Part shown: piece by piece, positions 8,152 to 54,566 of the stretch
Layout: every line of letters starts with the position of its first letter
Numbering within the stretch: the first letter of the stretch is position 1
Notes under the pieces: generated by a model
What the model was told of the DNA's origin: nothing
The model's database searches: none
The model's input: only the letters and a program-made list of their open reading frames with translations
Program-made: the position numbers and the translations under genes
Source: a bacterium HR15
Lineage (GTDB): Bacteria; Armatimonadota; Fimbriimonadia; Fimbriimonadales; GBS-DC
NCBI GenBank assembly: GCA_002898555.1
Contig: BEHR01000002.1
Coordinates: 1-64,000 of the forward strand
Direction of reading: 5' to 3'
DNA length: 64,000 nt

Positions 8152-8189
8152 GCATGCTCCTCGCGCCCTCAGGTATGATTTTGGGCGCG

Positions 8190-22407: not shown

Positions 22408-22450
22408 AAATGAGATCGTCGGGCAAGTCGGACAGGTTCGCCGTGTCAGA

Positions 22451-22503
22451 TGAAATTTTTTCTCTGGGGTACCCAGCGCAGCGGGGTCAGAGAAAAAATT
22501 TCA
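22451..22503. repeat. 53-base palindromic dispersed repeat, copy 1
   Basis: Perfect 16-base arms (TGAAATTTTTTCTCTG and its complement at 22488-22503) enclose a 21-base GC-rich loop. A near-identical copy lies at 32606-32658, and a diverged relative at 43032-43102. All are intergenic. The A/T-rich arms could act as a terminator in both directions. Confidence 0.85.
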
Positions 22504-22537
22504 GATTGGTCTGGCTGGCTCAACTGAGACACGCACG

Positions 22538-32591: not shown

Positions 32592-32605
32592 GCAGCGCTA
32601 TCCGA

Positions 32606-32658
32606 TGAAATTTTTTCTCTGGGGTACTCCGCGCAGCGGGGTCAGAGAAAAAATTTCA
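32606..32658. repeat. 53-base palindromic dispersed repeat, copy 2
   Basis: It has the same 16-base arms as the copy at 22451-22503 and a 21-base loop that differs at two positions. It lies between gmk and the NlpC/P60 gene, 14 bases after the gmk stop. Confidence 0.85.
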
Positions 32659-32677
32659 GGTGCCCGACGGAACCGAC

Positions 32678-35047: not shown

Positions 35048-35076
35048 GTGCAAGCGAATAGCGAGTTGGATGGCGG

Positions 35077-35255
35077 GGCTGCCAGGTGCCCGAGATGAAC
35101 GGTTATGAGGCGAAGCGCGTGTTGCGCGAGCGCGGGCATGCCGATCGTTGCGTTCACCGCCAACGCTTTGGAAAGTGACTGCAAAAAGTGCCTTGCTTGC
35201 AGCATGCGCGATTACCTGAGCAAGCTCATTCAAGAGGACGCCCTGCACGCCCTAA
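35077..35255 (+). pseudogene. Remnant of a response-regulator receiver domain
   Basis: One frame reads CQVPEMNGYEAKRVLRERGH, the loop after the phospho-acceptor aspartate of CheY-like receivers. The next frame continues MPIVAFTANALESDCKKCLA, then CSMRDYLSKLIQEDALHAL, which is the beta-5/alpha-5 end with its conserved lysine. A frameshift near 35138 joins them. The N-terminal half with the acidic pocket is missing. It is debris wedged between two genes and overlaps the end of the FtsX-like gene. Confidence 0.75.
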
Positions 35256-36391: not shown

Positions 36392-36399
36392 CACGCACA

Positions 36400-36424
36400 A
36401 TTGTACCCCAGCATGGGCTATAAT
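36400..36424. promoter_or_regulatory. Divergent -10 boxes for two leaderless mRNAs
   Basis: TACAAT on the minus strand (36400-36405) ends 8 bases before the FtsX-like ATG. TATAAT on the plus strand (36419-36424) ends 8 bases before the M1 peptidase ATG. The two start codons are only 41 bases apart and neither gene has a ribosome-binding site. Confidence 0.7.
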
Positions 36425-36432
36425 TAGGTGTT

Positions 36433-38640: not shown

Positions 38641-38703
38641 GAGTCCGTTGCGATGGCAGGAAGAAACACCCGTCGTGGCGAATCAAGCTCATGAGGTGAG
38701 ACG

Positions 38704-40656
38704 ATGGAAACAACAACCATTGAGGCATTGCTGCAGGAACAGCGGGTGTTCCCGCCTTCAGAGGAGTTTGTGCGTCAGGCAAATGTCAGCGACCCGTCCA
38801 TCTATGAAGAAGCGTCGCGCGATTACGAAGCCTTCTGGGCAAAATGTGCTGAGATTCTCGACTGGTACGAAAGATGGCACACCGTGTTGGAATGGAACCC
38901 ACCTTACGCCAAATGGTTCATAGGTGGCAAGTTGAACGCCTGCTATAACTGTGTCGACCGCCATGTGAAAACCTGGCGGCGCAACAAAGCCGCCCTTATT
39001 TGGGAAGGCGAACCGGGCGAGGAGCGTGTATTGACCTACGGCGATCTCCACCGAGAAGTGCAGAAGTTCGCCAATGTGCTGAAATCGCTGGGTGTGCGCA
39101 AGGGCGACCGCGTCTGCATCTATATGCCGATGGTGCCCGAAGTGGTGATCGCCATGCTTGCCTGCGCCCGCATCGGGGCTCCCCACTCCGTCGTGTTCGG
39201 CGGATTCAGCGCGGAAAGCCTCACCGACCGCATTAACGATGCCCAAGCCAAACTCCTTATCACCGCTGATGGCGGCTGGCGACGGGGCAATATCGTCCCT
39301 CTCAAGCGCAACGCAGATGATGCCCTGCGCAATGCGCCCTCCATCGAGAAGGTCATCGTGTTCCAGCGTATTGGAGGCGACTACATGGTGCCCATGCAAG
39401 AAGGGCGCGACCTCTGGTGGCACGAACTCATGGCAAACGCACCGCTCACCTGTGAACCTGAGCCGATGGACAGCGAAGATCTCCTCTACCTGCTCTACAC
39501 TTCCGGCTCCACAGGCAAGCCCAAAGGCATCATGCACACCACAGGCGGCTATCTCGTCGGCGTTGCCATCACCACCAAATGGGTGTTCGATATCAAAGAC
39601 GAGGACATTTACTGGTGCACTGCTGATGTTGGCTGGGTAACGGGGCACAGCTATATCGTCTATGGACCGCTTGCCATTGGGGCAACCGCCCTGATGTATG
39701 AAGGCGCGCCCGACTACCCCGACCGCGACCGCTTCTGGGCGATTGTGGAGAAGTACCGCGTGAACATTCTCTACACGGCACCAACCGCTATCCGCGCCTT
39801 CATGAAGTGGGGCGAACAGTACCCCCAACGCCACGATCTGAGCAGCTTGCGCCTGCTTGGCACTGTGGGCGAGCCGATTAACCCCGAAGCATGGATGTGG
39901 TACCACGAACATATCGGTGGCGGTCGCTGCCCCATCGTCGACACCTGGTGGCAAACCGAAACCGGCATGATTCTCATCACACCCCTGCCCGGCATCACCG
40001 CGACGAAGCCTGGCTCCGCCACAAAGCCCTTCCCTGGGGTCTTTCCCGACATCCTGGACGAGCAGGGCAACCCCACGCCGCCGGGCAGAGGCGGCTACCT
40101 CGTGCTGACGCGCCCCTGGCCTGCGATGACGCGCGGACTGTATGGCGACCCTGAACGCTTCCAGCAAATCTATTGGAGCAAATACCCAGGCATCTACTTC
40201 ACAGGCGACGGTGCAAAGCGCGATGAAGACGGCTACTTCTGGCTGCTTGGGCGCGTGGACGATGTAATCAATGTCGCTGGGCACCGCCTTAGCACGATGG
40301 AAATCGAGAGCGCGTTGGTGGATCATCCTGCCGTCGCGGAAGCCGCGGTCATCGGCAAACACCATGAAATCAAAGGGCAAGCGGTTGCCGCCTTCGTCAT
40401 CATCAAGGAGGGTTATCGCGCGGACGAACAGCTCCGTGAGGAACTTAAGCAGCATGTCGCCGCGAAAATCGGTGCGATTGCCCGCCCCGATGATGTAATC
40501 TTCACCGCCGACCTGCCCAAAACTCGCAGCGGCAAAATCATGCGCCGCCTGCTGCGCGACATCGCCGAAGGACGCGCCCTCGGCGACACCACCACCCTCG
40601 CCGACCCTGCCGTCGTACAAGCACTCAAAGAAAAATATGAAGGGCAGGAGGAGTAA
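38704..40656 (+). CDS. acs: Acetyl-CoA synthetase (AMP-forming)
   Basis: The 650-residue product is full length for Acs. It has the adenylation motif [70 protein letters not shown] and the acetylation-site region [15 protein letters not shown] near the C-terminus. It makes acetyl-CoA from acetate, ATP and CoA. GAGGTGAG lies 5 bases before the ATG. Its minus strand also carries a 709-codon open frame that is only a shadow of its codon bias. Confidence 0.97.
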
Positions 40657-40689
40657 CGCGCTTAGCTCATTGACTCCGCCCCTCCGACC

Positions 40690-40875
40690 GAAGGGTTCGA
40701 AATGCTGTGGCGAGTGGAGGGTGGGGCTGCCGGCCGAGCCGTTGGGAGGTTTTGTGGGGCATACACCCAGGTCTGCCCCTACAAGGTTGTGGGATGGGGT
40801 GCAAGGGCGCACCTGCGTGTGCGCCCCCCTTCTGCCCCGATAACCCATCCTGTAGGGGCGCACCGATGTGTGTGT
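40690..40875. repeat. Dispersed repetitive stretch before the histidine kinase
   Basis: This gap contains variants of the phrases GTAGGGGCGCACC, GGGCGCACCTGCGTGTGCGC and GGGGCATACACCCAGGTCTG, in both orientations. They form imperfect palindromes. Similar phrases are common dispersed extragenic repeats in other genomes. I see no gene in it. Confidence 0.5.
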
Positions 40876-40915
40876 CCTATTCCCCAATGTGGAAGAATCC
40901 CCTCTGGCAGCAGCA

Positions 40916-42424
40916 ATGCTCGAACTCTGGAAATACGGACTGCTCTGGTTCAGCGCGGGATTTTACGGCTACCTGATCGTGCACCACACGATTCAGGCGT
41001 TCTTGTCCGAGCAGCGCAAAGCCAACTTGCGGCTCGTGATATTGCTGGTCAACTGCCTCGTGTTCTCCATCGTCGACAGCCAGCTGCTAAGCCCTATCCC
41101 CGTACCCCATCCTGCTGTGCGCTTGCTCACCACGGTGCAGTTCGTCGCTTCGGTTTTCTGCGCGGTGCTTTTTGTTGAACTGCTCAACGAGCTGCTGGCG
41201 TTGCGAATAGACCGCGGAGTGCGCTGGCTATGGGGCGCGACCGCAGGGCTTGGTGCGATGGTGCTGCTGGGTCTCATTGTAGGAACCCGGACCGAGGTCA
41301 TTTTTCTGCCCCTTCTGCAGGGCTACTATGTTCGAAATGCCAGCACGCCATTGGGCTATATCGCCTCCGCCCTTTTTCTGAGCGCGTTTTTAGGCGCGTT
41401 CGGGCTGGCATTTGCTTCCTGGCGCAGACAACCACCCCCGAATCGCTGGATGCTCTCCATAGTGAGCCTGATCGTGCCGTTGGTGCTGGTGGATATGCTA
41501 ACCTACTATGGAATCCTTGCGGTTGTGCCCACATGGAACCTCTGCTACGCCATTATCTCGGCTGCGCTCTCCACGCGACTGAACGCTCAGATCTACGAAC
41601 TGACCAACCACCTGCGTCAAGCGCATGAGGAACTCCAAGCCGCTTATCGCCAAATGATTGAGCAGGAACGGCTAAGCACCATCGGGCAAATTGTCCGGGG
41701 CATCGTGCACGACCTGAAGAACTTCTTCAACACGGTGCAGTCGCTCGCCGATGTGGGCATCTTGCGTCTGAAGCGAGATCCTACCTTTGACCCCGCGGAT
41801 TACTTTGCCAACATCGGCTCCACGACGCGCAAGGCACACCAATATCTGCTGGATATGCTGGAGATGACGCATGAACAAGGGGAAATGCAATGGGAGGAGG
41901 TATCGCCTGCGGAACTCGTTCAAGAAGTGGCACGATTGTCAGGTGCGCGCTTTCTCAACCCGCCTGTGCAAGTGGTCAACCACATCCCCACTCACTTACG
42001 TATGCAAGCAGACCGCCGCTACATGACTCAGCTCTTCCTGAACCTCACCCTGAACGCCATTCAGGCAATGCGTGACTGGCAAGGCGAACGGCTCATCGAA
42101 TTCGGTTGGATCGAACAGCCCGACTGCACGGTGTTGATGATGCGCGACACGGGTCCTGGCTTGCCCGAGCAAGTGAGCGCCCACCTGTTCGAACGGGAAG
42201 TGACCACGAAACAGGGAGGCAGTGGGCTTGGGCTTATGCTGGCACGGCGCGCTTTGGAAAAGCATGGCGCCCAAGTCGAGGTCCATTCCGTCCCAAACGC
42301 GGGTACCCAATTCATTTTCCGATTCCCGACTCCGCCCCGTTTCGCCTCCACAAGTGACGGTTCTGCCGTTCCGACCCATCCCCCCGATCCTTCCGAGTCG
42401 CAGGCACGCCACCTCGCCGCCTGA
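40916..42424 (+). CDS. Membrane-bound sensor histidine kinase
   Basis: The 502-residue product has six or seven membrane helices (residues 5-235) and a coiled linker. The phospho-acceptor region is IGQIVRGIVHDLKNFFNTVQ, with the histidine in HDLKN. An ATPase domain has N-box LNLTLNAIQAM, G1 MRDTGPGLPEQ and G2 GGSGLGLMLARRALEKHG. The tail is low-complexity. No response regulator gene is adjacent; only the remnant at 35077 is nearby. I chose ATG 40916; earlier codons lie in the repeat. A hairpin follows the stop. Confidence 0.92.
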   Translation: MLELWKYGLLWFSAGFYGYLIVHHTIQAFLSEQRKANLRLVILLVNCLVFSIVDSQLLSPIPVPHPAVRLLTTVQFVASVFCAVLFVELLNELLALRIDRGVRWLWGATAGLGAMVLLGLIVGTRTEVIFLPLLQGYYVRNASTPLGYIASALFLSAFLGAFGLAFASWRRQPPPNRWMLSIVSLIVPLVLVDMLTYYGILAVVPTWNLCYAIISAALSTRLNAQIYELTNHLRQAHEELQAAYRQMIEQERLSTIGQIVRGIVHDLKNFFNTVQSLADVGILRLKRDPTFDPADYFANIGSTTRKAHQYLLDMLEMTHEQGEMQWEEVSPAELVQEVARLSGARFLNPPVQVVNHIPTHLRMQADRRYMTQLFLNLTLNAIQAMRDWQGERLIEFGWIEQPDCTVLMMRDTGPGLPEQVSAHLFEREVTTKQGGSGLGLMLARRALEKHGAQVEVHSVPNAGTQFIFRFPTPPRFASTSDGSAVPTHPPDPSESQARHLAA

Positions 42425-42432
42425 AGGCGAAC

Positions 42433-42462
42433 AGGCTTTGCTCCCATACTGAAGCAAAGCCT
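42433..42462 (+). terminator. Hairpin after the histidine kinase gene
   Basis: A perfect 10-base stem, AGGCTTTGCT/AGCAAAGCCT, with a 10-base loop lies 9 bases after the stop. Four T follow at 42467-42470. It is a plausible but T-poor terminator. Confidence 0.55.
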
Positions 42463-42513
42463 GGCACTTTTGCGAGGTACACACGGTTCCCCGCAGCCTC
42501 TGTCCGTGAAAAA

Positions 42514-42615
42514 CCCGCACTCTTCGCAGGTGAATCGGGGGCGTGGTCTATGGAATAACTTCGTCAGTGGGGGAGAGACCGCGGGAACACTGCCGCCCGA
42601 ACCGCTGAGGTTTTT
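42514..42615 (+). other. Possible structured leader of the pilin gene
   Basis: GTGGTCT (42543-42549) can pair with AGACCGC (42576-42582), while CCCGC (42514-42518) can pair with GCGGG (42581-42585). The two helices compete for 42581-42582. A T5 run lies at 42611-42615. It could be a regulated leader, but I cannot match it to a known riboswitch class, including the cyclic di-GMP ones. Confidence 0.3.
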
Positions 42616-42655
42616 CCCCCGCCAACCCAGAATAAGGAGGATGGAGGGAGACACT

Positions 42656-43006
42656 ATGATGCACAAATTGATGAACCGACGCCGTGAGCGAGGCTTCACG
42701 CTCGTCGAGATTATGATCGTGGTGCTGATTATCGGCATCCTGCTCGCGATTGCCGTGCCGAACTTTATGAGCGCACGCGAGCGTTCCCGTGCGAATGCTT
42801 GCCGTTCCAACCTGCGCCAGATTCAAGCCGCCAAGGAGCAGTGGGCAATGGCGAACAACCAGGGTCCCACAGCCACACCGACCCAAGCGGACCTGTCACC
42901 TACCTTTATTCAGACCTGGCCCAGCTGCCCTTCAGGGGGAACCTACACTATCGGCAACATGAGCACGAACCCGACCTGCAGCGTTGGCGGCGATCACAGC
43001 CTGTAA
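42656..43006 (+). CDS. Type IV pilin / type II pseudopilin
   Basis: The 116-residue product has a short basic leader (MMHKLMNRRRERG) and then FTLVEIMIVVLIIGILLAIA, the prepilin-peptidase site and hydrophobic helix of type IV pilins. Glu at +5 of the mature chain is present. The small C-terminal domain has a cysteine pair (CPSGGTYTIGNMSTNPTC) near the end. It may be assembled by the GspF/PilC-like platform at 1136. GGAGG lies 8 bases upstream. A strong terminator lies at 43108-43140. Confidence 0.93.
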   Translation: MMHKLMNRRRERGFTLVEIMIVVLIIGILLAIAVPNFMSARERSRANACRSNLRQIQAAKEQWAMANNQGPTATPTQADLSPTFIQTWPSCPSGGTYTIGNMSTNPTCSVGGDHSL

Positions 43007-43031
43007 TCGCCCGAAGATGGCCCTATCTGAC

Positions 43032-43102
43032 AAAATTTCTTCTCCGGCACAGCAGCAACATTTTTCCTCTGACCCGCAAGGGTACTCTGGAGAAGAAAAT
43101 TT
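43032..43102. repeat. Diverged relative of the 53-base palindromic repeat
   Basis: The stretch CCTCTGACCC...GGGTACTCTGGAGAA inside matches the core of the copies at 22451 and 32606 read in reverse. AAATTTCTTCTCC on the left pairs with GGAGAAGAAAATTT on the right with one extra A. It lies just after the pilin gene. Confidence 0.5.
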
Positions 43103-43107
43103 GGGAT

Positions 43108-43140
43108 GCCCCATCCACGATGGATGGGGCTTTCTATTTT
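43108..43140 (+). terminator. Intrinsic terminator of the pilin gene
   Basis: GCCCCATCCA and TGGATGGGGC form a perfect 10-base stem with a three-base loop, followed by TTTCTATTTT. It lies between the pilin gene and the convergent M42 peptidase gene. Confidence 0.88.
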
Positions 43141-43146
43141 CTTGGG

Positions 43147-44211
43147 CTATGTGCCGGGCACGAAGCTCATGTCAGGGGTGAGGCGTCGGGTGAATGCTGC
43201 CAGCAAGCGGGCAGCATTCTCCACATCGTCCAACGCCAGCAGCTCGCAAGGGGTGTGCATATAGCGTAAAGCCACCGACACCAACCCGGTAGCCATGCCG
43301 GCACGGCTGATCTGCATCGCGTTGGCGTCGGTGCCTGTGCCACCCCCGATCGCCTCAATCTGATAGGGGATGCCCTCTTCCTGCGCAGTTTGCACCAGCA
43401 GTTCAAACACGCGCGGATTGATGTTCGCTCCCCGGCAGATCACAGGACCTTTGCCCGGCACAATCTCGCCGACGCGCTTTTTGTCCACACCCGGATAGTC
43501 GGAAGCGTGCGTTACATCGACCGCGATGCCGACCTGGGGGTCCAGCCCGTACGCGCTGGTGCGTGCGCCGCGCAGCCCAATCTCTTCCTGCACGGTCGCG
43601 ACGGCGAACACAGCCGCGGCCGGGCGGCTTTCACTGAGCAGGCGCAGCGCCTCCGCCACGATAAATGACCCCATCTTATTGTCGAACCCACGCGCGGTGG
43701 CAAAGCCGTTCATCAAGGGGGTAAACTCCGCGGCAAAGGTGATAGGGTCGCCGATGCGCACCTTTTCCTCGGCGGCTGCTTTGCTACCCGCGCCAATATC
43801 GACCCATAGCTCGTGCAGTTTGGGCGCCTTGTTGCGTTCATCCTCTTCCAGCAAATGGATAGGCTTGCGCCCGATAACGCCCGGGAGAGGTCCTGATGCG
43901 GTATGCACATAGACGCGCTGCCCCACAGGGATGACCGAATCGTGCCCTCCGATGGGTCCGAAGTAGAGGAAACCTTCATCGGAGATATAGCGCACGATAA
44001 AGCCGATTTCATCCATATGTCCCGCGAACATCACGCGCGGCTTGCCCGACGGGTTCAGCGCCGCAATCACATTGCCCATTACATCGGTGGTCACCTCATC
44101 GGCAAACTCGCGCGTGTAGCGACGATAGATTTCCGCGGCGCGATACTCATAGCCCGATGGCGACGGTGCGTTCACGATAGCCCGGAAAAACTCCAACGAT
44201 TCGGGTCTCAT
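43147..44211 (-). CDS. M42-family metallo-aminopeptidase
   Basis: The 354-residue product has the M42 (TET/DHM-like) motifs: VMFAGHMDEIGF, ARGFDNKMGSFI, VATVQEEIGLRGA, VDVTHASDYPG and GGGTGTDANAMQISR. These give the two metal sites and the catalytic glutamate. Such enzymes form large cytoplasmic tetrahedral complexes that trim peptides. AGGAGGG lies 5 bases before the ATG, which overlaps the ribH stop by 4 bases. Confidence 0.93.
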   Translation of the reverse strand: MRPESLEFFRAIVNAPSPSGYEYRAAEIYRRYTREFADEVTTDVMGNVIAALNPSGKPRVMFAGHMDEIGFIVRYISDEGFLYFGPIGGHDSVIPVGQRVYVHTASGPLPGVIGRKPIHLLEEDERNKAPKLHELWVDIGAGSKAAAEEKVRIGDPITFAAEFTPLMNGFATARGFDNKMGSFIVAEALRLLSESRPAAAVFAVATVQEEIGLRGARTSAYGLDPQVGIAVDVTHASDYPGVDKKRVGEIVPGKGPVICRGANINPRVFELLVQTAQEEGIPYQIEAIGGGTGTDANAMQISRAGMATGLVSVALRYMHTPCELLALDDVENAARLLAAFTRRLTPDMSFVPGT

Positions 44212-44681
44212 TTCTTCCCTCCTGATCGATGTAGTAGATTGGTCATTTCTAATGCGCTGAGGGCAGCTTCGGCGCCTTTGTTGCCCGCCTTGCCCCCGGC
44301 GCGTTCCAGGGCTTGCTCAAAGGTCGCCTCGGTCAGGATCCCCAGCGCCATAGGCACTTCCGTCTCCAGCATCAGCTGTGTCAGCGCGTGGCAGACCGAG
44401 GCGCTGATATGGTGTGCGTGGCTCGTTTCGCCCTGCAGAACCGCGCCCAGACAGATGACGGCATCGTAGCGTTTGGAGCGAGCGCAACGAGCAGCAACCA
44501 GAGGGATTTCCCAGCTGCCCGGCACGCGGTAGATGTCGATGGCATCGTCCGATACGCCATGCCGATGCAGCACGCTCAGCGCGCCCGTTAGGAGCTGCTC
44601 GGTGATCAGTGCGTTATAACGACTGACCACTATCGCGAAGCGCTGTTCCTTCGCCTGCAAACCGCCCTCATACACTGGCAT
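44208..44681 (-). CDS. ribH: 6,7-dimethyl-8-ribityllumazine synthase
   Basis: The 157-residue product has FAIVVSRYNALITEQLLTGA, VPGSWEIPLVA, VICLGAVLQGETSHAHHISA with the catalytic histidine, and PMALGILTEATFEQALERAG with the GNKG motif after it. It condenses two precursors to lumazine in riboflavin synthesis. TATAGT at 44690-44695 ends 8 bases before the ATG. No other rib gene lies nearby. Confidence 0.97.
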   Translation of the reverse strand: MPVYEGGLQAKEQRFAIVVSRYNALITEQLLTGALSVLHRHGVSDDAIDIYRVPGSWEIPLVAARCARSKRYDAVICLGAVLQGETSHAHHISASVCHALTQLMLETEVPMALGILTEATFEQALERAGGKAGNKGAEAALSALEMTNLLHRSGGKK

Positions 44682-44689
44682 CGCACATA

Positions 44690-44695
44690 ACTATA
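44690..44695 (-). promoter_or_regulatory. -10 box for leaderless ribH mRNA
   Basis: TATAGT on the minus strand ends 8 bases before the ribH ATG. There is no FMN-riboswitch-sized leader between them. Confidence 0.55.
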
Positions 44696-44777
44696 CCCGC
44701 CAAGCGTTTGGAGGGCGTGTAGGGGAGCAGATTAGGTCGGGCAGCCATTTGGGTTATAATAAACCCTCGGTGAGAGC

Positions 44778-45036
44778 ATGCCTGACGGAAAGAATCCCCT
44801 TCAGGAGGTTGAGGTGCTGGTATTGGGTGCCGGTTTAGCAGGCTCAGTGGCTACCTATCGCTTGCAACAGGCAGGCTGTCGGGTGGCGCTGATCGAGGCG
44901 CGTGCGCGTGTGGGGGGCGCGTGTACACAACCTACGACTGGGCAGAAGGGCAGTATGCGGAATTAGGACCGGAATTTATCGATACCGGGCAGCACAGACG
45001 ATTCTCAAGCGGCTCAAGAGGTACACTACTGCAAGC
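44778..45036 (+). pseudogene. N-terminal remnant of a flavin amine oxidase
   Basis: One frame reads VEVLVLGAGLAGSVATYRLQ and VALIEARARVGG, an FAD-binding fold. A single missing G in the run after it shifts the frame. The next frame continues RVYTTYDWAEGQYAELGPEF and IDTGQH, which is the expected next part of such oxidases. The gene then breaks off against the thioesterase promoter; more than 80 percent of an amine oxidase is missing. GGGTTATAAT lies just upstream at about 44753-44762. Confidence 0.7.
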
Positions 45037-45081
45037 GATGGAAGGCAGAGCGCCCCGCGAAAGTGAGGTTGTGCTACCCAG

Positions 45082-45507
45082 ATGATGAATCCCGAGCACG
45101 CAAACCCGCTGGGGAATGTGCATGGGGGATGGATTCTGAAGTTGATTGATGAGGCAGGTGGGATTGTTGCTTCCCGCCATGCGCGTCGCCCCGCAGTGAC
45201 CGTCGAAATCGACTCGGTCAGCTTTCAGGCGCCGGTGCATGTGGGCAATCTGGTGCATGTGCGGGCGCGCATTACACGCGCATGGCGTACCTCGATGGAG
45301 ATTGAAGCGGTGGTCGAGGCGGAAAACTTACTTACGGGTGAGCGACGCTTGACCTCACAGGCGTATCTGGTCTATGTCGCGCTGGACGAAGCAGGTCGCC
45401 CTACCTCGGTACCGCCTGTGATTCCCGAAACGGACGAGGAGCGCCGCAAATGGGAGCAAGCCGACCAGCGCCGTGCCGAGCGCCTCGCCCGGCGCGAGCA
45501 CGGGTAA
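45082..45507 (+). CDS. Acyl-CoA thioesterase, hotdog fold
   Basis: The 141-residue product reads PEHANPLGNVHGGWILKLID and EAGGIVASRHARRPAVTVEID, typical of YciA/BACH-type acyl-CoA thioesterases. They hydrolyse acyl-CoA to free acid and CoA. A likely original start is ATG 45038, 10 bases after TACACT (45022-45027). That frame gives MEGRAPRESEVVLP and would join this one as VVLPQMMNPEHANP if one C had not been lost from the CCC run at 45077-45079. As it stands the protein must start at 45082. Confidence 0.85.
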   Translation: MMNPEHANPLGNVHGGWILKLIDEAGGIVASRHARRPAVTVEIDSVSFQAPVHVGNLVHVRARITRAWRTSMEIEAVVEAENLLTGERRLTSQAYLVYVALDEAGRPTSVPPVIPETDEERRKWEQADQRRAERLARREHG

Positions 45508-47079
45508 TCACGGCAACCCAGTCAACGATACACCCATCAACAACACACTCGGTTCTCGTCGCCAGTACAGGAACGGCTCGATACAGTGCTGTCGCCAGCC
45601 AAGCAGCAGCTGCACATCGTACAGCTGCTGCCGATTCAGGTCATATTTCAGCAGGGCACCCAACCGAAGGTTACCCCATTGCCCCTCCCCACGCAACGCG
45701 AGTTCGTTCCGTGCCACAGGGCGGTCTACAACGAAAGGGGTGCTGCCCGTGGTTTGAGCAAAGGCATAGCCAAGCATGAGTCGGAACCGTTCCGAAGGTT
45801 GATAGGATATCTCGATTTGGGGACGCAGCCAGTCCAGACGCTGGTTGCTCTCATAACGCACATGGCTTGCCCACAAGTGCAGATTCAGCTCGAACGGCCG
45901 ATGCATCAGGGGCTGCAACCATTCCGCTTCCAGAGCGAGCCGCCGTTGCGTGGGAGTGTGCTCGCGCATCTTCCCCACGCGCAGAGTTAGCCCACCTGCA
46001 CCTTCCCCCAGGGCAAACCCTGTGCTGAGCGCGATCTCAAAGGGGCGCGAAACACGCAGGTGTGCCTCCCTTCCCAACAGGGGGCGTATATTGGATGCAT
46101 GCTCAATGCGTAGAGTGGTGGTCCGCTCATGCAGCGCGGTGCGTTCACGGTCGGGTGTGATGCGCAGGTTGTACAGTGTGCTTGCTTCCAGTCGCTGGCT
46201 CAATTCGGGTTCCATCAGGGTGGGCATATCCCCTGTCAGCGCGACGGCAAGCGCGAGGCGCGTTTCGGGCACGGCATGTCCGTAGAACGCGCCATGCAGC
46301 GCAAGCAGGGCACGCTCTCCGAGAGGTAGCTCCCATTGATACCGTGCGCCCAGCCCTGTGTCGGGGCTGTAGGTCGGGGTGGGCAGCTCCAGGGTTTCGC
46401 GTCGCTCACGCAGGCGCAAAGTGAGTGTTGGTAATCGTAACAGCGTGCGCCCTTTCCAGCGTAGGCGGGCATTAAAAAGGCGCAACCGCTCGCCCCCGAG
46501 CAAGCGCACGCGCTCCGCCTCCACCGTAAAATCGGGTGGATCGCGCTCGCAGACGGTGGCGCGCACCCTTTGCGCCTCGAACTGTTGGAGGTCGCCTGCC
46601 ATCTCCTGCGCCCAGAGGCGCAACGGCGGGGGATGGGTAGTAGGGGATAAGTAGCGAGAGGAATGCCTTCCCGCCCCACTATCCGAAACGCGCCCCTCGC
46701 TACCCGCTAAAGGGTAGAGAATCGCTTCCACCTGACTGAATCGCCCGCGCCGCTGCTCATAGAAATATTCCAGTCGCTGCCCGCGCAGGTGACCTTCTGG
46801 GGCAATCAGCTCAAAAGGGGTCTCCCCACGCACACGCGCTTGGGCGGTGTCCACCTGTAGTCTCTCCGTGCGGAGAGAACGCCCCCCATAAAGCAGCTCA
46901 ACAGCACCTTGTAGCTCCAACTGCAGCGTGCCATCTGGCTGGCGAGTCGCACGAGAATAGAGGGCACGCAGGGTGAGAGATTGGGTAGCAAGGAAGCCTT
47001 CTGCCTTGACCTCATGCCCAAGCCACACAGAAAACACAGGGAGCGCAAGCAGGGAGGCGAGCCGACACACCGCCCTCAC
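45508..47079 (-). CDS. lptD: LptD/OstA-like outer-membrane protein
   Basis: The 523-residue product has a signal peptide (ASLLALPVFSVWLG). An OstA-like N-terminal beta region follows (LQGAVELLYGGRSLRTERLQ, RVRGETPFELIAPEGHLRG). Then comes an LptD-like stretch with CERDPPDFTVEAERVRLL and RWKGRTLLRLPTLTLRL. The rest is a beta-barrel-like sequence to the C-terminus. LptD places lipopolysaccharide in the outer membrane; this copy is shorter than proteobacterial LptD. It starts with GTG one base after the speE stop. It supports a diderm envelope. Confidence 0.75.
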   Translation of the reverse strand: MRAVCRLASLLALPVFSVWLGHEVKAEGFLATQSLTLRALYSRATRQPDGTLQLELQGAVELLYGGRSLRTERLQVDTAQARVRGETPFELIAPEGHLRGQRLEYFYEQRRGRFSQVEAILYPLAGSEGRVSDSGAGRHSSRYLSPTTHPPPLRLWAQEMAGDLQQFEAQRVRATVCERDPPDFTVEAERVRLLGGERLRLFNARLRWKGRTLLRLPTLTLRLRERRETLELPTPTYSPDTGLGARYQWELPLGERALLALHGAFYGHAVPETRLALAVALTGDMPTLMEPELSQRLEASTLYNLRITPDRERTALHERTTTLRIEHASNIRPLLGREAHLRVSRPFEIALSTGFALGEGAGGLTLRVGKMREHTPTQRRLALEAEWLQPLMHRPFELNLHLWASHVRYESNQRLDWLRPQIEISYQPSERFRLMLGYAFAQTTGSTPFVVDRPVARNELALRGEGQWGNLRLGALLKYDLNRQQLYDVQLLLGWRQHCIEPFLYWRREPSVLLMGVSLTGLP

Positions 47080-47080
47080 C

Positions 47081-48007
47081 TCAGGCTTCCCAGGCGAACG
47101 GCTCGGCGTCGGTCAACACGCGCGCCGTTTGGATGACCTCGCGCAGGTAGGGCGGAATGGCGAACATCGCAAAATGGGTCTGCGGGTCATAATAGCGCAG
47201 CCCGCGTACTCCGCGCACCTCCAATCGATTTGCCACCTCGTCAGGCGTGAGCGCAAGCGGATCGTGCTTCTTGGATGCCAGCACGAAGCCCCATGGTAGC
47301 ATGAACGATGCGACGAACGACCAATAAGGGCGCACGATGGGGAATACCTCTTGTAAAGTGCGCACGATGCAGCCGTACAGCTGGGGATAGAGAGGATCGC
47401 CTGCACCCGACTGAACCGTCAAGACGCCCTCGTCGGTCAGCGCGTCATAAATCATCTGATAGAATTCACGCGTAAATAGATATTGCGAGGGTCCTGCCTC
47501 CAGCGGGTCCGTCAAATCGGACACAATCACATCGAAATGGTTGCGATACCGAGGAATGACTTGGCGAGCATCATCAAAAATGAGCGTCGTGCGCGGATCG
47601 GAGAAGGAACCCTGATGCCATTCGGGCATGTATTGCTCGCAGTAGCGCACCAGCTGCTCGTCGATATCGACCATCACGGCTTGCTGCACTGTTTGATGGC
47701 GCAAAACCTCGCGCAGCGTTGCGCCTTCGCCACCCCCTGCGACCAACACGCGCTGTGGGTTCGGATGCGTCACCATGCCGGGCTGAACCATCGGCTCATG
47801 GAACATGTATTCGTCCAGCAGCGCAGACTGGATTTTGTTATCCAGAAAGAGCGTCTTGCCGTAGCCTGCCAGTTCCACCAGCATCGCGTGCTGGAAGCGG
47901 GTCTGGGCGATCTGGTATACCTGTTTCACGCGATAGGTGTACATCACCGCATCGGTGTGTGTCTCCGAAAGCAATAACCCTCCGCATACATGGTGTGCCG
48001 CCGCCAT
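47081..48007 (-). CDS. speE: Polyamine aminopropyltransferase (spermidine synthase family)
   Basis: The 308-residue product has YKTLFLDNKIQS-type N-terminal strands (GKTLFLDNKIQSALLDEYMF), then VLVAGGGEGATLREVLRH, MVDIDEQLVRYC, FDDARQVIP and the catalytic loop IVSDLTDPLEAGPSQYLFT. It transfers an aminopropyl group from decarboxylated SAM to a diamine or polyamine. In thermophiles such enzymes may make longer or agmatine-based polyamines; the acceptor cannot be told. GGAGG lies 8 bases before the ATG. Confidence 0.93.
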   Translation of the reverse strand: MAAAHHVCGGLLLSETHTDAVMYTYRVKQVYQIAQTRFQHAMLVELAGYGKTLFLDNKIQSALLDEYMFHEPMVQPGMVTHPNPQRVLVAGGGEGATLREVLRHQTVQQAVMVDIDEQLVRYCEQYMPEWHQGSFSDPRTTLIFDDARQVIPRYRNHFDVIVSDLTDPLEAGPSQYLFTREFYQMIYDALTDEGVLTVQSGAGDPLYPQLYGCIVRTLQEVFPIVRPYWSFVASFMLPWGFVLASKKHDPLALTPDEVANRLEVRGVRGLRYYDPQTHFAMFAIPPYLREVIQTARVLTDAEPFAWEA

Positions 48008-48041
48008 GTTTTTTTCCTCCTTACAGTGAGTAGTGAGTTTG

Positions 48042-49118
48042 CTATTCGCGATTCATCAGCTTTGCCAGTTCCGCCTTGAGCCGATCGATGTAGTCGATGG
48101 TATACGGATCTACGCCGTTGAGGTATGCCAGATAGAGGCTGACGAAATCGCCGAGATAGGTCAGTGTGAGTAGGCGTTCAAGCAGACTCTCGCCTTCTGC
48201 CCAAACCTCGTGCCAGTCGGCCGCGTCTCCCACGAGCTGGCGTGTGACCTCGATGCGCGTGCGCGTTTGAATGCTCTCGTCGGGGTCGCGCAGCGCCACG
48301 ACGGCAAAGTTTTTTGCCTGCTGCTTCGCACCGACCCAACCCAAAATCTCATTATGGTTCAGTTCGGGGAAGGTGTTTGCGAAGGCGTGTTGCTTTGCGT
48401 TCTCGTTGAACTGCCCCTTCCAGCGTGTGGCAACAATCGCGCGATAGCTGCCTGAACCATAGAGCAGGGGGAGCTTACCGTGGAGTGCGGAAGCGAGCTG
48501 CTTTGCGGGATTCTGCTCATAAGGCGTGCTGATGCCCCAGTGGTCGCGTCCCTGCACCAGTCGCTGCAGGGTTCGGATACGCGCCTGCTCCAGGTTGGGT
48601 AGCAGGTGCCACCGCTCACATAGCACCACCATCGGCAGAAGGAGGTAGCCGAGCGCGGTACGCGGCGGTTGACCACTTGGCACCTGCAGGTGGGGGATGC
48701 CCTCCATCTGGGCACGCGCTTGAAGCTCGCCTCCGCTGGAGATCGCGACCACCATCGCGTTGCGCGCACGCGCCTCCGCATAGCACGCAAGCGTCTCCTC
48801 CGTATTGCCTGAATAGCTTACTGCGAAGAGCAGCGTGTGGTCATCGGCGCAGTGCGGCAGGTGATAATCGCGCACCACCAGCACGGGCAGGTTGCCCAGC
48901 GCTTCGAACAGGGCGCGTAAGTAATCGCCCCCGATGCCGGAGCCACCCATGCCGCTGACCACGACCAAGCGCGGCTCACGGGGCAGCGCGGGCAATCGCC
49001 ATTCCAGTGCAATGGCGACGGCACGCTCATATTGTGATGGAAAATCGAGCGTGAGCGCCATCATACCGCGCGGGTCCGCAGTGTGAAGCACTCCCTGTTC
49101 ATCCAAAAGGTGTGCCAT
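48042..49118 (-). CDS. Bifunctional phosphoglucose/phosphomannose isomerase
   Basis: The 358-residue product has two SIS domains. The motifs are VVVSGMGGSGIGGDYLRALF, FAVSYSGNTEETLACYAEA, LLYGSGSYRAIVATRWKGQF and FNENAKQHAFANTFPELNHNE-type sequence with the catalytic glutamate and histidine. This is the dual-specificity PGI/PMI family. It interconverts fructose-6-phosphate with glucose-6-phosphate and mannose-6-phosphate. It lies between rpsR and speE on the same strand. Confidence 0.92.
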   Translation of the reverse strand: MAHLLDEQGVLHTADPRGMMALTLDFPSQYERAVAIALEWRLPALPREPRLVVVSGMGGSGIGGDYLRALFEALGNLPVLVVRDYHLPHCADDHTLLFAVSYSGNTEETLACYAEARARNAMVVAISSGGELQARAQMEGIPHLQVPSGQPPRTALGYLLLPMVVLCERWHLLPNLEQARIRTLQRLVQGRDHWGISTPYEQNPAKQLASALHGKLPLLYGSGSYRAIVATRWKGQFNENAKQHAFANTFPELNHNEILGWVGAKQQAKNFAVVALRDPDESIQTRTRIEVTRQLVGDAADWHEVWAEGESLLERLLTLTYLGDFVSLYLAYLNGVDPYTIDYIDRLKAELAKLMNRE

Positions 49119-49127
49119 CCATGCTCC

Positions 49128-49412
49128 TCACTGGGCGATGTAGGGTAGCAGCGCTAATTCGCGCGCCCGTTTAATCGCCAGTGCCAGTTGCCGTTGGCAC
49201 TTGGCGCAGGTGCCTGTCTGGCGGCGTGGGAGAATCTTACCGCGCTCCGAGATGTAGCGTCGCAGACGCGCCACATCTTTGTAGTCGATGGGTTTCTTCT
49301 CAAGACAGAAAGCGCATGTCTTCCGCTTGCGTCGGACACGACGCAGTTTCGCACCAACTTCCAGCTCCTCGTCCAGTTCCTTCTTTTCCAACTCCAACGG
49401 TTCGATCGCCAT
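49128..49412 (-). CDS. rpsR: Ribosomal protein S18
   Basis: The 94-residue product has [20 protein letters not shown] and [20 protein letters not shown], then [20 protein letters not shown], the S18 core. Its N-terminal 25 residues are an acidic extension. Four cysteines in two CxxC pairs suggest zinc binding. GGAGGTG lies 4-6 bases before the ATG. It forms an operon with ssb and rpsF; rplI is missing here. Confidence 0.98.
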
Positions 49413-49436
49413 TTTTCACCTCCGTCTAAGCGCGAA

Positions 49437-49919
49437 TTAGAGCTGTTCGAAGGGGTCGCCCTCGACATCGAAGTTCTCCTCCGCAAATTCGTCCAGCGGT
49501 TCGAGTTCCTCTTCGGGTTCGGGAACGGCAGGGATTCGGGAAGGAGCCGAAGCTCCTGCTGAGCCAACCGCTGCTTGGGTAGGAGCTGCCTCGGCTTCCG
49601 TTTCGCGCGGGCGATCCAGCAGGCGCACCGTCTGCGCGACGATTTCATAAGCTCTGCGCTGAACGCCTTCTCGGTCCGTGTAGGAGCGACTCTGTAGGCG
49701 TCCCTCCACCAGCACCAATCGTCCTTTGGTGGCGTAGTTCGCCATGAAGTCGGCTTGTTGTCGGAAGGCGACCACATCGAAGAAATCCGCCACATCCTCA
49801 CCTGAGGTGGGGCGGTTCACCGCGATACGGCAACGCACCACCGCGATCCCATCCGGGGTGGTGCGCAGCTCCGGATCGCGCGTGAGACGACCAATCAGAA
49901 TGATGCGATTGTAGTTCAT
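49437..49919 (-). CDS. ssb: Single-stranded DNA-binding protein
   Basis: The 160-residue product starts MNYNRIILIGRLTRDPELRT and contains FFDVVAFRQQADFMANYATK and GRLVLVEGRLQSRSYTDREG, the SSB OB-fold. A linker and an acidic tail follow. The end is unusual: DPFEQL in place of the common DDDIPF. The linker includes VGSAGASAPS, a relative of the dispersed repeat at 15435. The start at 49919 is fixed by homology; the open frame continues upstream into rpsF. Confidence 0.97.
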   Translation of the reverse strand: MNYNRIILIGRLTRDPELRTTPDGIAVVRCRIAVNRPTSGEDVADFFDVVAFRQQADFMANYATKGRLVLVEGRLQSRSYTDREGVQRRAYEIVAQTVRLLDRPRETEAEAAPTQAAVGSAGASAPSRIPAVPEPEEELEPLDEFAEENFDVEGDPFEQL

Positions 49920-49929
49920 CGTTAACCCC

Positions 49930-50253
49930 CTATGCGTGCGCCAGTGCGGCGACCTCCTCCGGTTCCAGGCGGAAGATGCGAAAACGCAAGATGCTCTCGG
50001 TGATGCTGAGTACCCTCCGCAATTCCTCCGCGGCTGCGGGCATGCCCTCGAACCGGAAGAGCAGGTAGATGCCCTCACTTACATGCTTGATTTCATAAGC
50101 GAACTTGCGCTTATCCCATATTCGCGCCTCGTGAACGGTTGCACCCTGATTTTCGAGCAGTGTACGAAACCGTTCTATCAGGGCATCCACCGCCTCCTGC
50201 TCCATACTGCTGGGCAGAATGACCATCGCCTCATACATTCTCGGTTTGACCAT
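49930..50253 (-). CDS. rpsF: Ribosomal protein S6
   Basis: The 107-residue product reads MYEAMVILPSSMEQEAVDAL, RIWDKRKFAYEIKHVSEGIY and LLFRFEGMPAAAEELRRVLS, the S6 core. ATG 50253 has GGAGG 11 bases upstream. It leads the rpsF, ssb, rpsR cluster. Confidence 0.98.
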   Translation of the reverse strand: MVKPRMYEAMVILPSSMEQEAVDALIERFRTLLENQGATVHEARIWDKRKFAYEIKHVSEGIYLLFRFEGMPAAAEELRRVLSITESILRFRIFRLEPEEVAALAHA

Positions 50254-50351
50254 GCCGTATTGACCCTCCTGTCGTGCGTGGCGTGGTAGGGGCGCAAAGT
50301 CTTTTGCTCCTACCAATGCGTGCAATCCGTTCGCCACTTACCACCGCAAGA

Positions 50352-50600
50352 TTATACCTCATCGCCCGATTGCAACTCCTTCAGCGTTTGTTCGATCTGT
50401 TGGTGGATGCGTTGCTGGGTCTCGGTATCGGGCTCGAAGGTGACCAGCAGCCAATGGCTCTCCTTGGTGTTGGGCGGGAGCCATTCGAGGGGCACGACCC
50501 AGGTGAAGTAATCGCCTGGCTGCCAGCGTACGACCAGCACAGCGACCCGCTCGCCCTCTTCGAGCGTTTCGATTCGATCCACAAATGCGCGCACAATCAT
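50352..50600 (-). CDS. Small DUF3006-like protein
   Basis: The 82-residue product begins MIVRAFVDRIETLEEGERVA and continues VLVVRW...WVVPLEWLPPNTKES, which fits the short beta-rich DUF3006 pattern. The C-terminal third is a predicted helix. The function is unknown. AGGGAGG lies 8 bases before the ATG, which overlaps the polX stop by 4 bases, so it is coupled to polX. Confidence 0.75.
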   Translation of the reverse strand: MIVRAFVDRIETLEEGERVAVLVVRWQPGDYFTWVVPLEWLPPNTKESHWLLVTFEPDTETQQRIHQQIEQTLKELQSGDEV

Positions 50601-52330
50601 GGATAAGCCTCCCTGATGCTCTGGAGCCATGCGTGCAACTCGGCAAGGGGGCGTGTGTTCAGAACGCGCTCGGGCATGAGCCAGCCGCGCTGGGCTAACC
50701 CAACGGCCAGCTCCATATAGCGCAAGTCGCTGGCAACATGGGCATCCGTGCCCAGCGCGACCGGTGCGCCACTCTCGTTCAGCACGCGCACCAACGGCGT
50801 GGGCGGGTCCATGCGCGTATAATAACCGTTCACCTCGACCGCCTTCCCCAGCTGCGCTGCACGCTTGAAAACGCGCTCCCAGTCTGCCTCATTCGATTCG
50901 CGCTTCCCAAACCGCCTTCCTGTCGGATGCGCCAAAATTTGCACGGCTGGATGCTCCAGTGCGCGAATTAAGCGGTGAGTCATCACTTCAGGCGGTTGTC
51001 CATGCGTATGGTGTACGCCCGCTATGACGATCTCAGCGCGGCGCAATAGGTCGCTGGGCGCGTCGATGCTGCCGTCCGCTTCGATGTTCACTTCCAGACC
51101 GTTCATCAGGTAGGGCTTGCCACCGAATTGCTCATTGAGCCGTTCGATCTCCTGCTGGCGTCGTTGGAACACTTCACGCAACTCACCGTGCCACATCAGC
51201 ATCTCCACATGGTCGGTCAGCGCGAGGTATTCGTAGCCAAGGCTCTGGGCGACCTGGAGGAGCTGTTCGATGGAGCTGCGTCCGTCGGACCAGCGCGAAT
51301 GGGACTGCAGGTCGCCGCGAACCTGTTCCAGCTGGATAAGAGGGGGCAAGGTGCCCTGCTCAGCCGCTTCCAGTTCGCCCTGGTCCTCGCGGAGTGGGGG
51401 CGGTATCCACGGTAGCCCCAGCGCGGCATAGACCTCCTCCTCCGTCAGGCTGGCGATTCGCTCGGTGCCGCGCCACACGCCATACTCGTTCAGCTTCAGC
51501 CCGCGTTCTATCGCGCGCTCACGCAGGCGGATGGAGTGGGGTTTGGAACCTGTGATGTAGAGCATGCCGGCGCCCCAGCTATCGAGTGGTACCAGCTTGA
51601 GATCTACCTGTAAGCCGTCGCTGAGGAACACTTGCGCTCGGTTCTCACCCCGTGAATAGACCTCGGCCACGCCCGGCATGCGTACGAACGCTTCGATGAC
51701 CGCCTCATTCTGCTCCGTCGCGACCAAATAGTCCAAATCCCCCACCGTTTCTTGCATGCGTCGAACGGAACCGCCCAGCAGCACTTTCCGTACGCCGGGC
51801 GCATGGCGCAGCCATTCCAGCCGTTCGCGTGCCAGCCACAGCACAGACCCCAGCGGGCGACGCGCACGCGACTTTTTCACCAGGTCGATGAGGTGCAGCA
51901 GACGCTGGCGCTTCTGCTCGCCAAAGCCAGGTAGTTTCTGCACTTGCGGGCTTTCCAGCGCGCGTTGCAGGCTCTCCAGGTCATGGACGCCCAGCGCTTC
52001 TGTGAGGAGGCGAGCCGTTTTTGCACCTATCCCCGGCACCGCCATCACTTCCAGGATGCCTGGCGGCGCCTGCGCAAGCAACTGTTGATGCTTTGGGATA
52101 ACGCCCGTTTCCAGATAGGTTCGAATCTTTTCCGCAATCGCCTTGCCGATGCCCGGGATCGCCTCTAAGGCTTCTTGACCCTGTTCGGCGATGGTCTCGA
52201 TGGGCGTCTGCATCGTCTCCAGCAAGCGCGCTGCCTGACGATAGGCACGCGATTTGAACGGGCTATCACCGAAATAGTCCGATAAGTCCGCTAATTCATA
52301 GAGTAATCGTGCCACTTCGTTGTTTCGCAC
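50597..52330 (-). CDS. polX: Family X DNA polymerase with PHP domain
   Basis: The 577-residue product has the bacterial PolX order. An 8-kDa-like helical domain with helix-hairpin-helix AIPGIGKAIAEKIRTYLETG and VPGIGAKTARLLTEALG comes first. The polymerase palm has GGSVRRMQETVGDLDYLVAT and VDLKLVPLDSWGAGMLYITG. The C-terminal PHP phosphoesterase domain has GDLQSHSRWSDG, LALTDHVEM, AGVHHTHG, ILAHPTGR and ALGTDAHV. It fills small gaps in base-excision repair and has nuclease activity. The GTG start lies 6 bases after TACAAT. Confidence 0.96.
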   Translation of the reverse strand: MRNNEVARLLYELADLSDYFGDSPFKSRAYRQAARLLETMQTPIETIAEQGQEALEAIPGIGKAIAEKIRTYLETGVIPKHQQLLAQAPPGILEVMAVPGIGAKTARLLTEALGVHDLESLQRALESPQVQKLPGFGEQKRQRLLHLIDLVKKSRARRPLGSVLWLARERLEWLRHAPGVRKVLLGGSVRRMQETVGDLDYLVATEQNEAVIEAFVRMPGVAEVYSRGENRAQVFLSDGLQVDLKLVPLDSWGAGMLYITGSKPHSIRLRERAIERGLKLNEYGVWRGTERIASLTEEEVYAALGLPWIPPPLREDQGELEAAEQGTLPPLIQLEQVRGDLQSHSRWSDGRSSIEQLLQVAQSLGYEYLALTDHVEMLMWHGELREVFQRRQQEIERLNEQFGGKPYLMNGLEVNIEADGSIDAPSDLLRRAEIVIAGVHHTHGQPPEVMTHRLIRALEHPAVQILAHPTGRRFGKRESNEADWERVFKRAAQLGKAVEVNGYYTRMDPPTPLVRVLNESGAPVALGTDAHVASDLRYMELAVGLAQRGWLMPERVLNTRPLAELHAWLQSIREAYP

Positions 52331-52336
52331 GCATCG

Positions 52337-52342
52337 ATTGTA
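52337..52342 (-). promoter_or_regulatory. -10 box for leaderless polX mRNA
   Basis: TACAAT on the minus strand ends 6 bases before the GTG start of polX. The FtsX-like gene copy begins 19 bases beyond it in the opposite direction. Confidence 0.55.
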
Positions 52343-52360
52343 CCTGATAGTAGAGGCACA

Positions 52361-52498
52361 CTGGAGCCGTTGGATCCCATCGCCTACCGCTACACGCTGC
52401 CCGTGCCAATCATGGTGCTCCTTTTTGTGCTGGACACTATCGGCTGGCGACTGCGCACTTTTGATCCCGTCGCGATCGTGGGGCGACGGATCGTTTAG
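52361..52498 (+). pseudogene. 138-base copy of the 3' end of the FtsX-like permease gene
   Basis: The frame encodes LEPLDPIAYRYTLPVPIMVL, continues LFVLDTIGWRLRTFDPVAIV and ends GRRIV-stop. It equals the last 45 residues of the permease at 35252 except for four changes (A to V, G to D, E to G and one silent). Homology begins exactly at CTGGAG and ends at the stop codon. Nothing of the permease lies before it. Confidence 0.9.
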
Positions 52499-52513
52499 AG
52501 CGATTCACGCTGC

Positions 52514-52585
52514 TGGTTCCGGGCGGCTTTGAGGGCGGCGCAGAAGCTTGCCCGCCAGATCCGGGAGGGGGTGCTCTTAGCATAG
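52514..52585 (+). pseudogene. Short C-terminal coding remnant of unknown origin
   Basis: One frame reads WFRAALRAAQKLARQIREGV and LLA-stop, a typical amphipathic protein end with no start. It follows the FtsX copy in a different frame. I cannot assign a family. It may be chance. Confidence 0.3.
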
Positions 52586-52632
52586 TGCCCGTCCCAATTG
52601 CCAGGCATCATATAAGGTTCCGCCGTGGCCCC

Positions 52633-54495
52633 CTACTGGCTTACCATTCGCCACTCACTGCTCGCCACTTGCCCCAAAACCAGCTCCCGCACCGTCTTCT
52701 CGACCAAATCGGTCTCCAGCACTAAGCATGGATGACCAAAATACTCCGCGTCTCGAACGGGAATCTCGCTGCTTCCCGTTCGTGCCCACCCCTTGAGTGG
52801 CGTGAACAGCAGCACCGTTACACGCCCCATCGACATTGCCGATAGCAACGAAAGCTGCATCTGGTCTGCTATGTTGGCAAACCGGTGACGAATGGCGGTG
52901 CGTGCGGTGTGCCAGCGTACAAGCTCCGCTGCGGTGATCCATTCGTAGCCTGCGCTACGAATGGCGGCCATCAGCCGAATAAAAGCGTCCGCCTTCTCCT
53001 CGCTCTCCACTACGGTGGGTCGAACGGTGAAATGGCACACCCCGCCAACTGACTGCACTCCGCGCAGGATCGCCCGTGCCTCCATCATCCCGACACGCTC
53101 CATCAGGTGATAACCCAGTAGGGGGATCACATACAAATTATGCAGCTCGCCCGGGCGGGTTTGCTGGAGGGGGCGCCACGGATGCGCACTGCCAAAGGCG
53201 AACCCTGCTGCGCCTGCCGAGTAGCCGCCACGGCTCAGATCGCTTAAAATCTGCGCCTGCTCCGCATAGGTGTAGAACTCGGTGCAACCACGCCATTGCA
53301 AATTCGCCACCTGCACCGCCGTAATACTGCGTACTCCGCTGAATCGGCGCAAGCTGTCCACTTGATTCTGCAGCAGAGCTGCCGAGCGACAAAAAACACC
53401 CGCTTCGGGCACATAACGCAGCCCAATCTCATGTCCACGCTTGGCTAAGTCACGATAAAACGCGGGTCCGTGACTCGCCTCACTCAGACACCAGACCGCG
53501 CGCAATCCTGTCAGCGTCAGCAACCGATGGAGGGTCGTCTCGTGATGCGCCGCGGCAGGCTCCGCATCAATGCTCAAAACCGCCACGCCCGGCAAAGCAG
53601 CGGGATAGAACCAAAGCATCGGCACAACCGCACCACACTGCTGCCCACTCCACAAAATCGCACGGATGAGGCTCTCTTGCCAGAGATCGGCCACAGGCTT
53701 CAGAAAGAGGCGCGGAGTGACTGGCGCGTGGCGCGGGGGATCTATCCCCTCGCTTCCTCGATCCAGATACCAATCCAACCGAACAGCATCCTCGGCACGC
53801 AGGGCATGGTCATCTGGTTCGCGCTCCACATCGGGAGGCAGCACCGCCTGTTCCACCACTGGGCGTCCATGCCGGATGCGGGCAATGCTTTCGCCAGGGT
53901 GTACCGCGAACAGGATGGCATGTCCTGCGCTATGCGCTTGATGGACAATCGCGGGCAGTCCTGTTTCGCGTCCGTGTGCATCGAGCCAGTGCGCCCAGAC
54001 CGTGCCCTCCTGCACCTCCACGGCGATGCCGCCGAATCCATGCAGCAGTCCCCATTCATGGGGCACCAGGGGATTCGAAGGCGAGCCAATGGCATAACCT
54101 TCGCCCAGCCCTATGGAGTGAGCAGAAGATGGTTCACCCTCTGCCCCACGCTCCCCGTATGTCAAAGGGCGCACGCCAAACATCTCTGGCAGCGAGCAGG
54201 TCCCGCCCAGCGCAAGCCAGACACCACCTGCTTTCACAAACGCTTGCAGCGCACGCTGCCCCTCCTCGCTCAGTTCGCCCTCGCCTATGGTCAGTAAAAC
54301 ATCCAGCCCGGCGACTCGTGCAGGCAGCTCCCCCGGCGTGAGCCAATCCACCAGAAAGCCGCAATACTGCACCAGCTCGCAGGTCAGTCGATCAAATGGC
54401 TGGAGCGTGACAGGCATTGCGCCTGCGCCCGCTTTCCCTTTTGCACTCATCGGGCAAACCCCGATTCGCGCCCAACGCCATTCAGGTGAACGCAT
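52633..54495 (-). CDS. Two-domain protein: ThuA/glutamine-amidotransferase-like plus deacetylase-like
   Basis: The product of about 620 residues has an N-terminal Rossmann-like part (LDVLLTIGEGELSEEGQRAL, FVKAGGVWLALGG), like ThuA or beta-galactosidase trimerisation domains. A central part has PGVAVLSIDAEPAAAHHETT, FYRDLAKRGHEIGLRYV and ITAAELVRWHTAR, which is the layout of polysaccharide-deacetylase-like barrels. The metal histidines typical of active deacetylases are not obvious. The role is unknown, perhaps in glycan metabolism. I chose ATG 54495; 54450 is also possible. Confidence 0.65.
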   Translation of the reverse strand: MRSPEWRWARIGVCPMSAKGKAGAGAMPVTLQPFDRLTCELVQYCGFLVDWLTPGELPARVAGLDVLLTIGEGELSEEGQRALQAFVKAGGVWLALGGTCSLPEMFGVRPLTYGERGAEGEPSSAHSIGLGEGYAIGSPSNPLVPHEWGLLHGFGGIAVEVQEGTVWAHWLDAHGRETGLPAIVHQAHSAGHAILFAVHPGESIARIRHGRPVVEQAVLPPDVEREPDDHALRAEDAVRLDWYLDRGSEGIDPPRHAPVTPRLFLKPVADLWQESLIRAILWSGQQCGAVVPMLWFYPAALPGVAVLSIDAEPAAAHHETTLHRLLTLTGLRAVWCLSEASHGPAFYRDLAKRGHEIGLRYVPEAGVFCRSAALLQNQVDSLRRFSGVRSITAVQVANLQWRGCTEFYTYAEQAQILSDLSRGGYSAGAAGFAFGSAHPWRPLQQTRPGELHNLYVIPLLGYHLMERVGMMEARAILRGVQSVGGVCHFTVRPTVVESEEKADAFIRLMAAIRSAGYEWITAAELVRWHTARTAIRHRFANIADQMQLSLLSAMSMGRVTVLLFTPLKGWARTGSSEIPVRDAEYFGHPCLVLETDLVEKTVRELVLGQVASSEWRMVSQ

Positions 54496-54566
54496 GCCGT
54501 TTGTTTCTCTGCCCCTCTTTCTGATTATCGGCAAATCACTCGCCTTCCGCTACTCGCCCATCGAGG

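Follow-up and report, generated by a model that had tools for sequence, protein, structure and literature searches.

A short stray piece of an FtsX-like permease gene upstream of polX is, with a probability that we put at about 70%, the stump of a chromosomal inversion of ~17 kb that was accompanied by a duplication at the breakpoint and that moved the intact gene away. The piece was found in a window of 64,000 nucleotides, by which we mean the whole stretch of DNA analysed, and it forms an inverted repeat with the end of the single full copy of the gene.

Results

An inverted repeat of 142 bases bounds a block of 17 kb

Positions 52361-52502 on the forward strand (D') align without gaps to positions 35389-35248 on the reverse strand (D), with 136 of 142 bases identical and 6 mismatches. 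At a BLASTN E-value of about 1e-62 in a search inside the window, this is the top self-match of the window and far beyond chance, which was rejected as its source. The copies are separated by 16,971 bases (35390-52360), so that both ends of this block (S), the putatively inverted one, carry one sequence on opposite strands. D' comprises the last 45 codons of the gene, the stop codon and four further bases, the first of which differs. The near-identical copy of the gene end and the roughly five, mostly transitional changes reported in the first-pass annotation were thus borne out, with the length revised from 138 to 142 bases: five differences lie inside the 138 bases, a sixth follows just past the stop codon, and all six are transitions. 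The copy does not end exactly at the stop codon, as had been stated there, but reaches 4 bases beyond it.

In the complete set of contigs of this genome (3,036,312 bases, 72 contigs) the sequence of D occurs at two places only. As it is coding sequence with just two copies, there was no pre-existing repeat or mobile element to mediate the event. A mobile element was also rejected on account of the flanks, whose only multi-copy matches are two short weak ones on the right-hand side.

The stray copy is decaying

The intact FtsX-like gene lies at 35252-36400 on the reverse strand (Pfam FtsX, E 3.8e-07), with a likely ATG start near 36391 as judged by inspection. Some match to it was found in 39 of the 41 genomes searched, and in most genomes of the family the orthologues share 60-79% of their amino acids. 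We compared the gene end with the loci of ten relatives drawn from these 39 genomes. For four of the five coding differences, none of the ten carries the base of D', while at the fifth both bases occur. Two of the changes affect conserved residues: an alanine kept in 9/10 relatives has become valine, and a glutamate kept in 10/10 has become glycine. Since the intact gene retains these family-conserved residues and D' has lost them, D' is decaying, and, judged by the bases that D' does not share with the relatives, the working gene is the one at 35252-36400, and an unconstrained remnant of its 3' end lies at 52361-52502 (forward strand).

An assembly or binning artefact could produce such a pair, given that the assembly is split into 72 contigs and that two tandem copies of 4,072 bases elsewhere on the contig (C2:100649-108786), 99.975% identical, are either a very recent duplication or an artefact themselves. 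However, the two copies studied here show six differences over 142 sites, and the changes are polarised to one copy, which argues against a mere assembly duplicate; completeness and contamination of the genome are rated at 98.29% and 0.73%, respectively. We therefore regard this explanation as very improbable.

The first-pass annotation had further considered a second permease gene, but a second full or near-full copy, as expected for a recent whole-gene paralogue, is absent, and a second whole permease was rejected because the genome shows only the tail beside the single full copy. A search of the genome for further truncated copies gave nothing beyond D and D', and a comparable stranded tail was found in none of the other 40 of the 41 genomes searched. 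In one of these (G010) a partial FtsX match runs into a contig end, and weak FtsX-domain matches in other genomes look like other permeases.

The intact gene adjoins a truncated histidine-kinase remnant

The left side of the block provides the strongest anatomical clue. Directly beside D, at 35076-35239 on the forward strand, lies a frame-broken remnant of the receiver domain of a hybrid histidine kinase, which matches positions 69-107 of the 111 of the Response_reg profile weakly and below the curated Pfam cut-off. It was compared with seven homologous stretches, six of which matched at the nucleotide level (72-78% identity), while L096 gave no match at the threshold used. Homology extends no further than 35239, and the first base of D is 35248. 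The six matching homologues all run 14-18 residues further to their stop codon, with a continuation that reads, by eye, (A/T)LA-x-WL or very similar. Because they all extend beyond this point, the remnant is truncated where the repeat begins, to within about 9 bases, and the supposed source side of the repeat is thus itself a rearrangement junction. On this sequence comparison, the junction on the 3' side of the intact gene is a real break. In the rest of the genome no homology to this left flank was found. An intact kinase lies ~6.6 kb from polX in two relatives (G011 and G009), but on the other side of polX.

If a rearrangement brought the working gene to this place, a truncated remnant is what one would expect; if 142 bases had merely been copied from here, it would be a coincidence. 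This bears on the idea of a templated insertion, in which template switching during repair of a break upstream of polX copied the 142 bases from the FtsX-like gene, 17 kb distant, without any inversion. Such a scenario requires one event only, an inverted orientation is expected half of the time, and direct local gene fragments are known both in this genome and in the relative G003; it leaves unexplained, however, why the kinase remnant breaks off so close to the boundary of the copied piece, and it does not explain the reciprocal sucC case described below. We consider it unlikely. Of the origins proposed in the first-pass annotation, recombination debris therefore holds up, while a retro-event or template-switch copy has become less likely, since the remnant stops about where the match stops. 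The truncated kinase and the stranded tail would both be accounted for as well if the whole gene had been duplicated in inverted orientation into the left site and the old copy then deleted down to its tail. Yet this takes two events and more junctions than a single inversion, and near 52361 there is no trace of a remaining second copy other than the tail, so that we hold it to be quite improbable.

The polX side of the block

The other inferred breakpoint lies upstream of a polX-like DNA polymerase gene (50597-52330, reverse strand; HHH_8, DNA_pol_B_thumb and PHP in Pfam), directly left of D', where the first-pass annotation had rightly placed it. A -10-type box GGTACAATC (52336-52344, reverse strand) adjoins its start codon, and a GGTATAAT/GGTAGAAT/GGTACACT-like box stands close before the polX start in 10/10 relatives shown. 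The box of this genome reads GGTACAAT, and the stray tail begins 16 bases upstream of this GG-TACAAT box. Only the -10-type box is conserved among the relatives; nothing upstream of it is comparable. A -35 hexamer at the usual spacing would coincide with the edge of the repeat, and the rearrangement may therefore have altered polX expression. Similar -10-like boxes lie a few bases before the start codons of polX (52336-52344), FtsX and M1 peptidase (36391-36433), which suggests leaderless transcripts for these genes.

On the other side of D', positions 52503-52632 would be the stretch that once lay downstream of the FtsX-like gene. This right flank is unique in the genome save for the two short weak matches mentioned above. 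It is followed by a gene for a protein of 632-633 amino acids (52633-54534, reverse strand) without a Pfam family above the cut-off, whose 3' neighbours in relatives are all different.

A second pair of reciprocal fragments

In a self-comparison of 697,815 bases of this genome including the window (pairs of at least 60 bases and at least 88% identity) we found 14 two-copy pairs. Several of these are local and direct, some link different contigs, one is tRNA-like and one is the tandem 4-kb pair. The only inverted pairs on one contig are D/D' and two pieces that belong together. As a control, 400,000 bases of the complete genome of G003 contained three two-copy pairs, all of them direct. One direct pair of our genome is another stranded fragment, a 140-base part of a LuxR-type regulator gene with a copy of 96.4% identity 6.8 kb away (C1:25603-25742 and C1:32565-32704).

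The two pieces that belong together lie beyond the window (C2:92113-92294, 91865-91948, 128508-128689 and 129235-129318). About 165 bases upstream of an intact sucC-like gene (92117-93277) 84 bases of the gene at 128869-130503 recur as a fragment, and this second gene, intact as well, adjoins a 182-base fragment of the sucC start. Both fragments are inverted, their order and relative orientation agree, and the two ends are 36 kb apart on the same contig. The partner gene, named SBBP/dockerin-like by inspection, proved lineage-specific in a search with this gene apart from its dockerin-like end. Further matches to the pieces were not found in the whole genome, nor was the adjacency of sucC and its partner found in the relatives' loci reaching 1.5 kb to each side. 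After a simple copying event the two fragments would be expected to lie in one place. Two intact genes that each lie beside a fragment of the other, in inverted orientation and at the ends of a 36-kb block, are hard to explain otherwise than by an inversion with duplicated ends.

Other repeats in the sampled sequence are dispersed. Two small hairpin repeats, with the cores ATTTTTTCTCTGGGG (window 22446-22504, 32601-32659 and others) and AAATTTTCTTTTCCG (C1:63975-64028, C2:76007-76060), gave 18 and 20 matches, respectively, and a third repeat with the core GGCTCGGCGGGAGCCTCGC (C2:71697-71863, 128700-128866 and others) gave 15, compared to none for each of them in the G003 sample. In addition, dockerin-like C-terminal ends, named by inspection, are repeated in the window (7984-8152, 34883-35048, 38479-38641), and a search with one dockerin-ended protein returned at least 76 matches in the genome.

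Gene order and composition

None of the 41 genomes searched for the FtsX-like gene is listed as belonging to the same genus, and 20 stretches around FtsX and polX from relatives show that gene order has been reshuffled between the family genomes compared. As a consequence, the ancestral order is not directly readable from the relatives, and the direction of the inversion rests on anatomy. In the fetched neighbourhoods neither the right-hand nor the left-hand gene was found beside FtsX or polX, beyond shared domains; the relatives share neither flank of the block, and synteny does not separate the old from the new order. Strand skew at fourfold sites inside versus outside the block was weak and mixed.

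Discussion

Taken as an inversion, the events could have proceeded as follows. Before the event, the FtsX-like gene would have been located on the forward strand with its stop codon at the present position 52498, adjoining the right flank, while polX would have faced the histidine-kinase remnant at the left flank. One break near the end of the FtsX-like gene, in which the two strands were cut about 142 bases apart or a repair fork copied that stretch, and a second break upstream of the polX promoter would have released the block, which was then rejoined in flipped orientation. Fill-in of both ends would have placed the 142 bases at both junctions, so that the intact gene reached 35252-36400 as part of the block and its tail stayed behind at the old address (52361-52502), where it now decays. 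Several observations count against this reading: synteny does not separate old from new order, strand composition gives no signal, the relatives' loci do not show sucC beside its partner, D/D' comes without a reciprocal fragment of the right-hand gene at the left flank, unlike the sucC case, and the local duplicates in direct orientation in this genome and in G003 need no inversion.

There is also a very slight chance that the block still flips by homologous recombination between D and D'. In that case either orientation would keep an intact FtsX-like gene, as both copies hold the last 45 codons in frame together with the stop codon, while the tail would alternate between ERRIV and GRRIV and the DNA before polX, a DNA repair polymerase, would change, making a slow switch out of an inversion scar. 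Against continued flipping stands the finding that nearly all changes sit in D', including one at a residue that 10/10 relatives retain.

An inversion scar of this sort is ordinary in kind, and its mechanism is already known. The original description of DNA duplication associated with inversion (DDAI) is reportedly that of Furuta et al. from 2011, with the duplicate sitting inverted at both ends. DDAI is treated as a known mechanism, also with regard to pylori, in papers that cite a 2011 original (PMC8963470, PMC3120642, PMC6933940). As described there, DDAI resembles our case in that an inversion is tied to DNA duplication and to gene birth or death at the breakpoints; it differs in that here the ancestral order is unavailable and the duplicated piece is a decaying gene tail rather than a whole gene. 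In Thermus tengchongensis 15W, likewise a thermophile, a 128-kb inversion is ascribed to DDAI; one of its breakpoints disrupts a gene and an additional gene lies near the second, whereas there strains of one species were compared and the inversion spans about 128 kb instead of 17 kb (PMC8963470). According to a study on Drosophila subobscura, staggered-break inversions leave gene fragments and, at each breakpoint, inverted duplications similar in length to ours (in O8 the duplicated fragments measure 380 and 128 bases), but this is a eukaryote in which both arrangements were sequenced (PMC5080602). By analogy, the length of 142 bases fits a staggered-break mechanism.

If the inversion is real, the short copy marks the old address of the gene and is not an insertion, which reverses the direction assumed in the first-pass annotation. 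One contig would then hold two inversion scars whose ends are duplicated, within a family (Fimbriimonadales) that varies in gene order around the FtsX-like gene in nearly every genome compared, and such scars could serve for counting and dating inversions where a close reference genome is lacking. This would be ordinary genome wear, yet it helps to show how chromosome flips happen.
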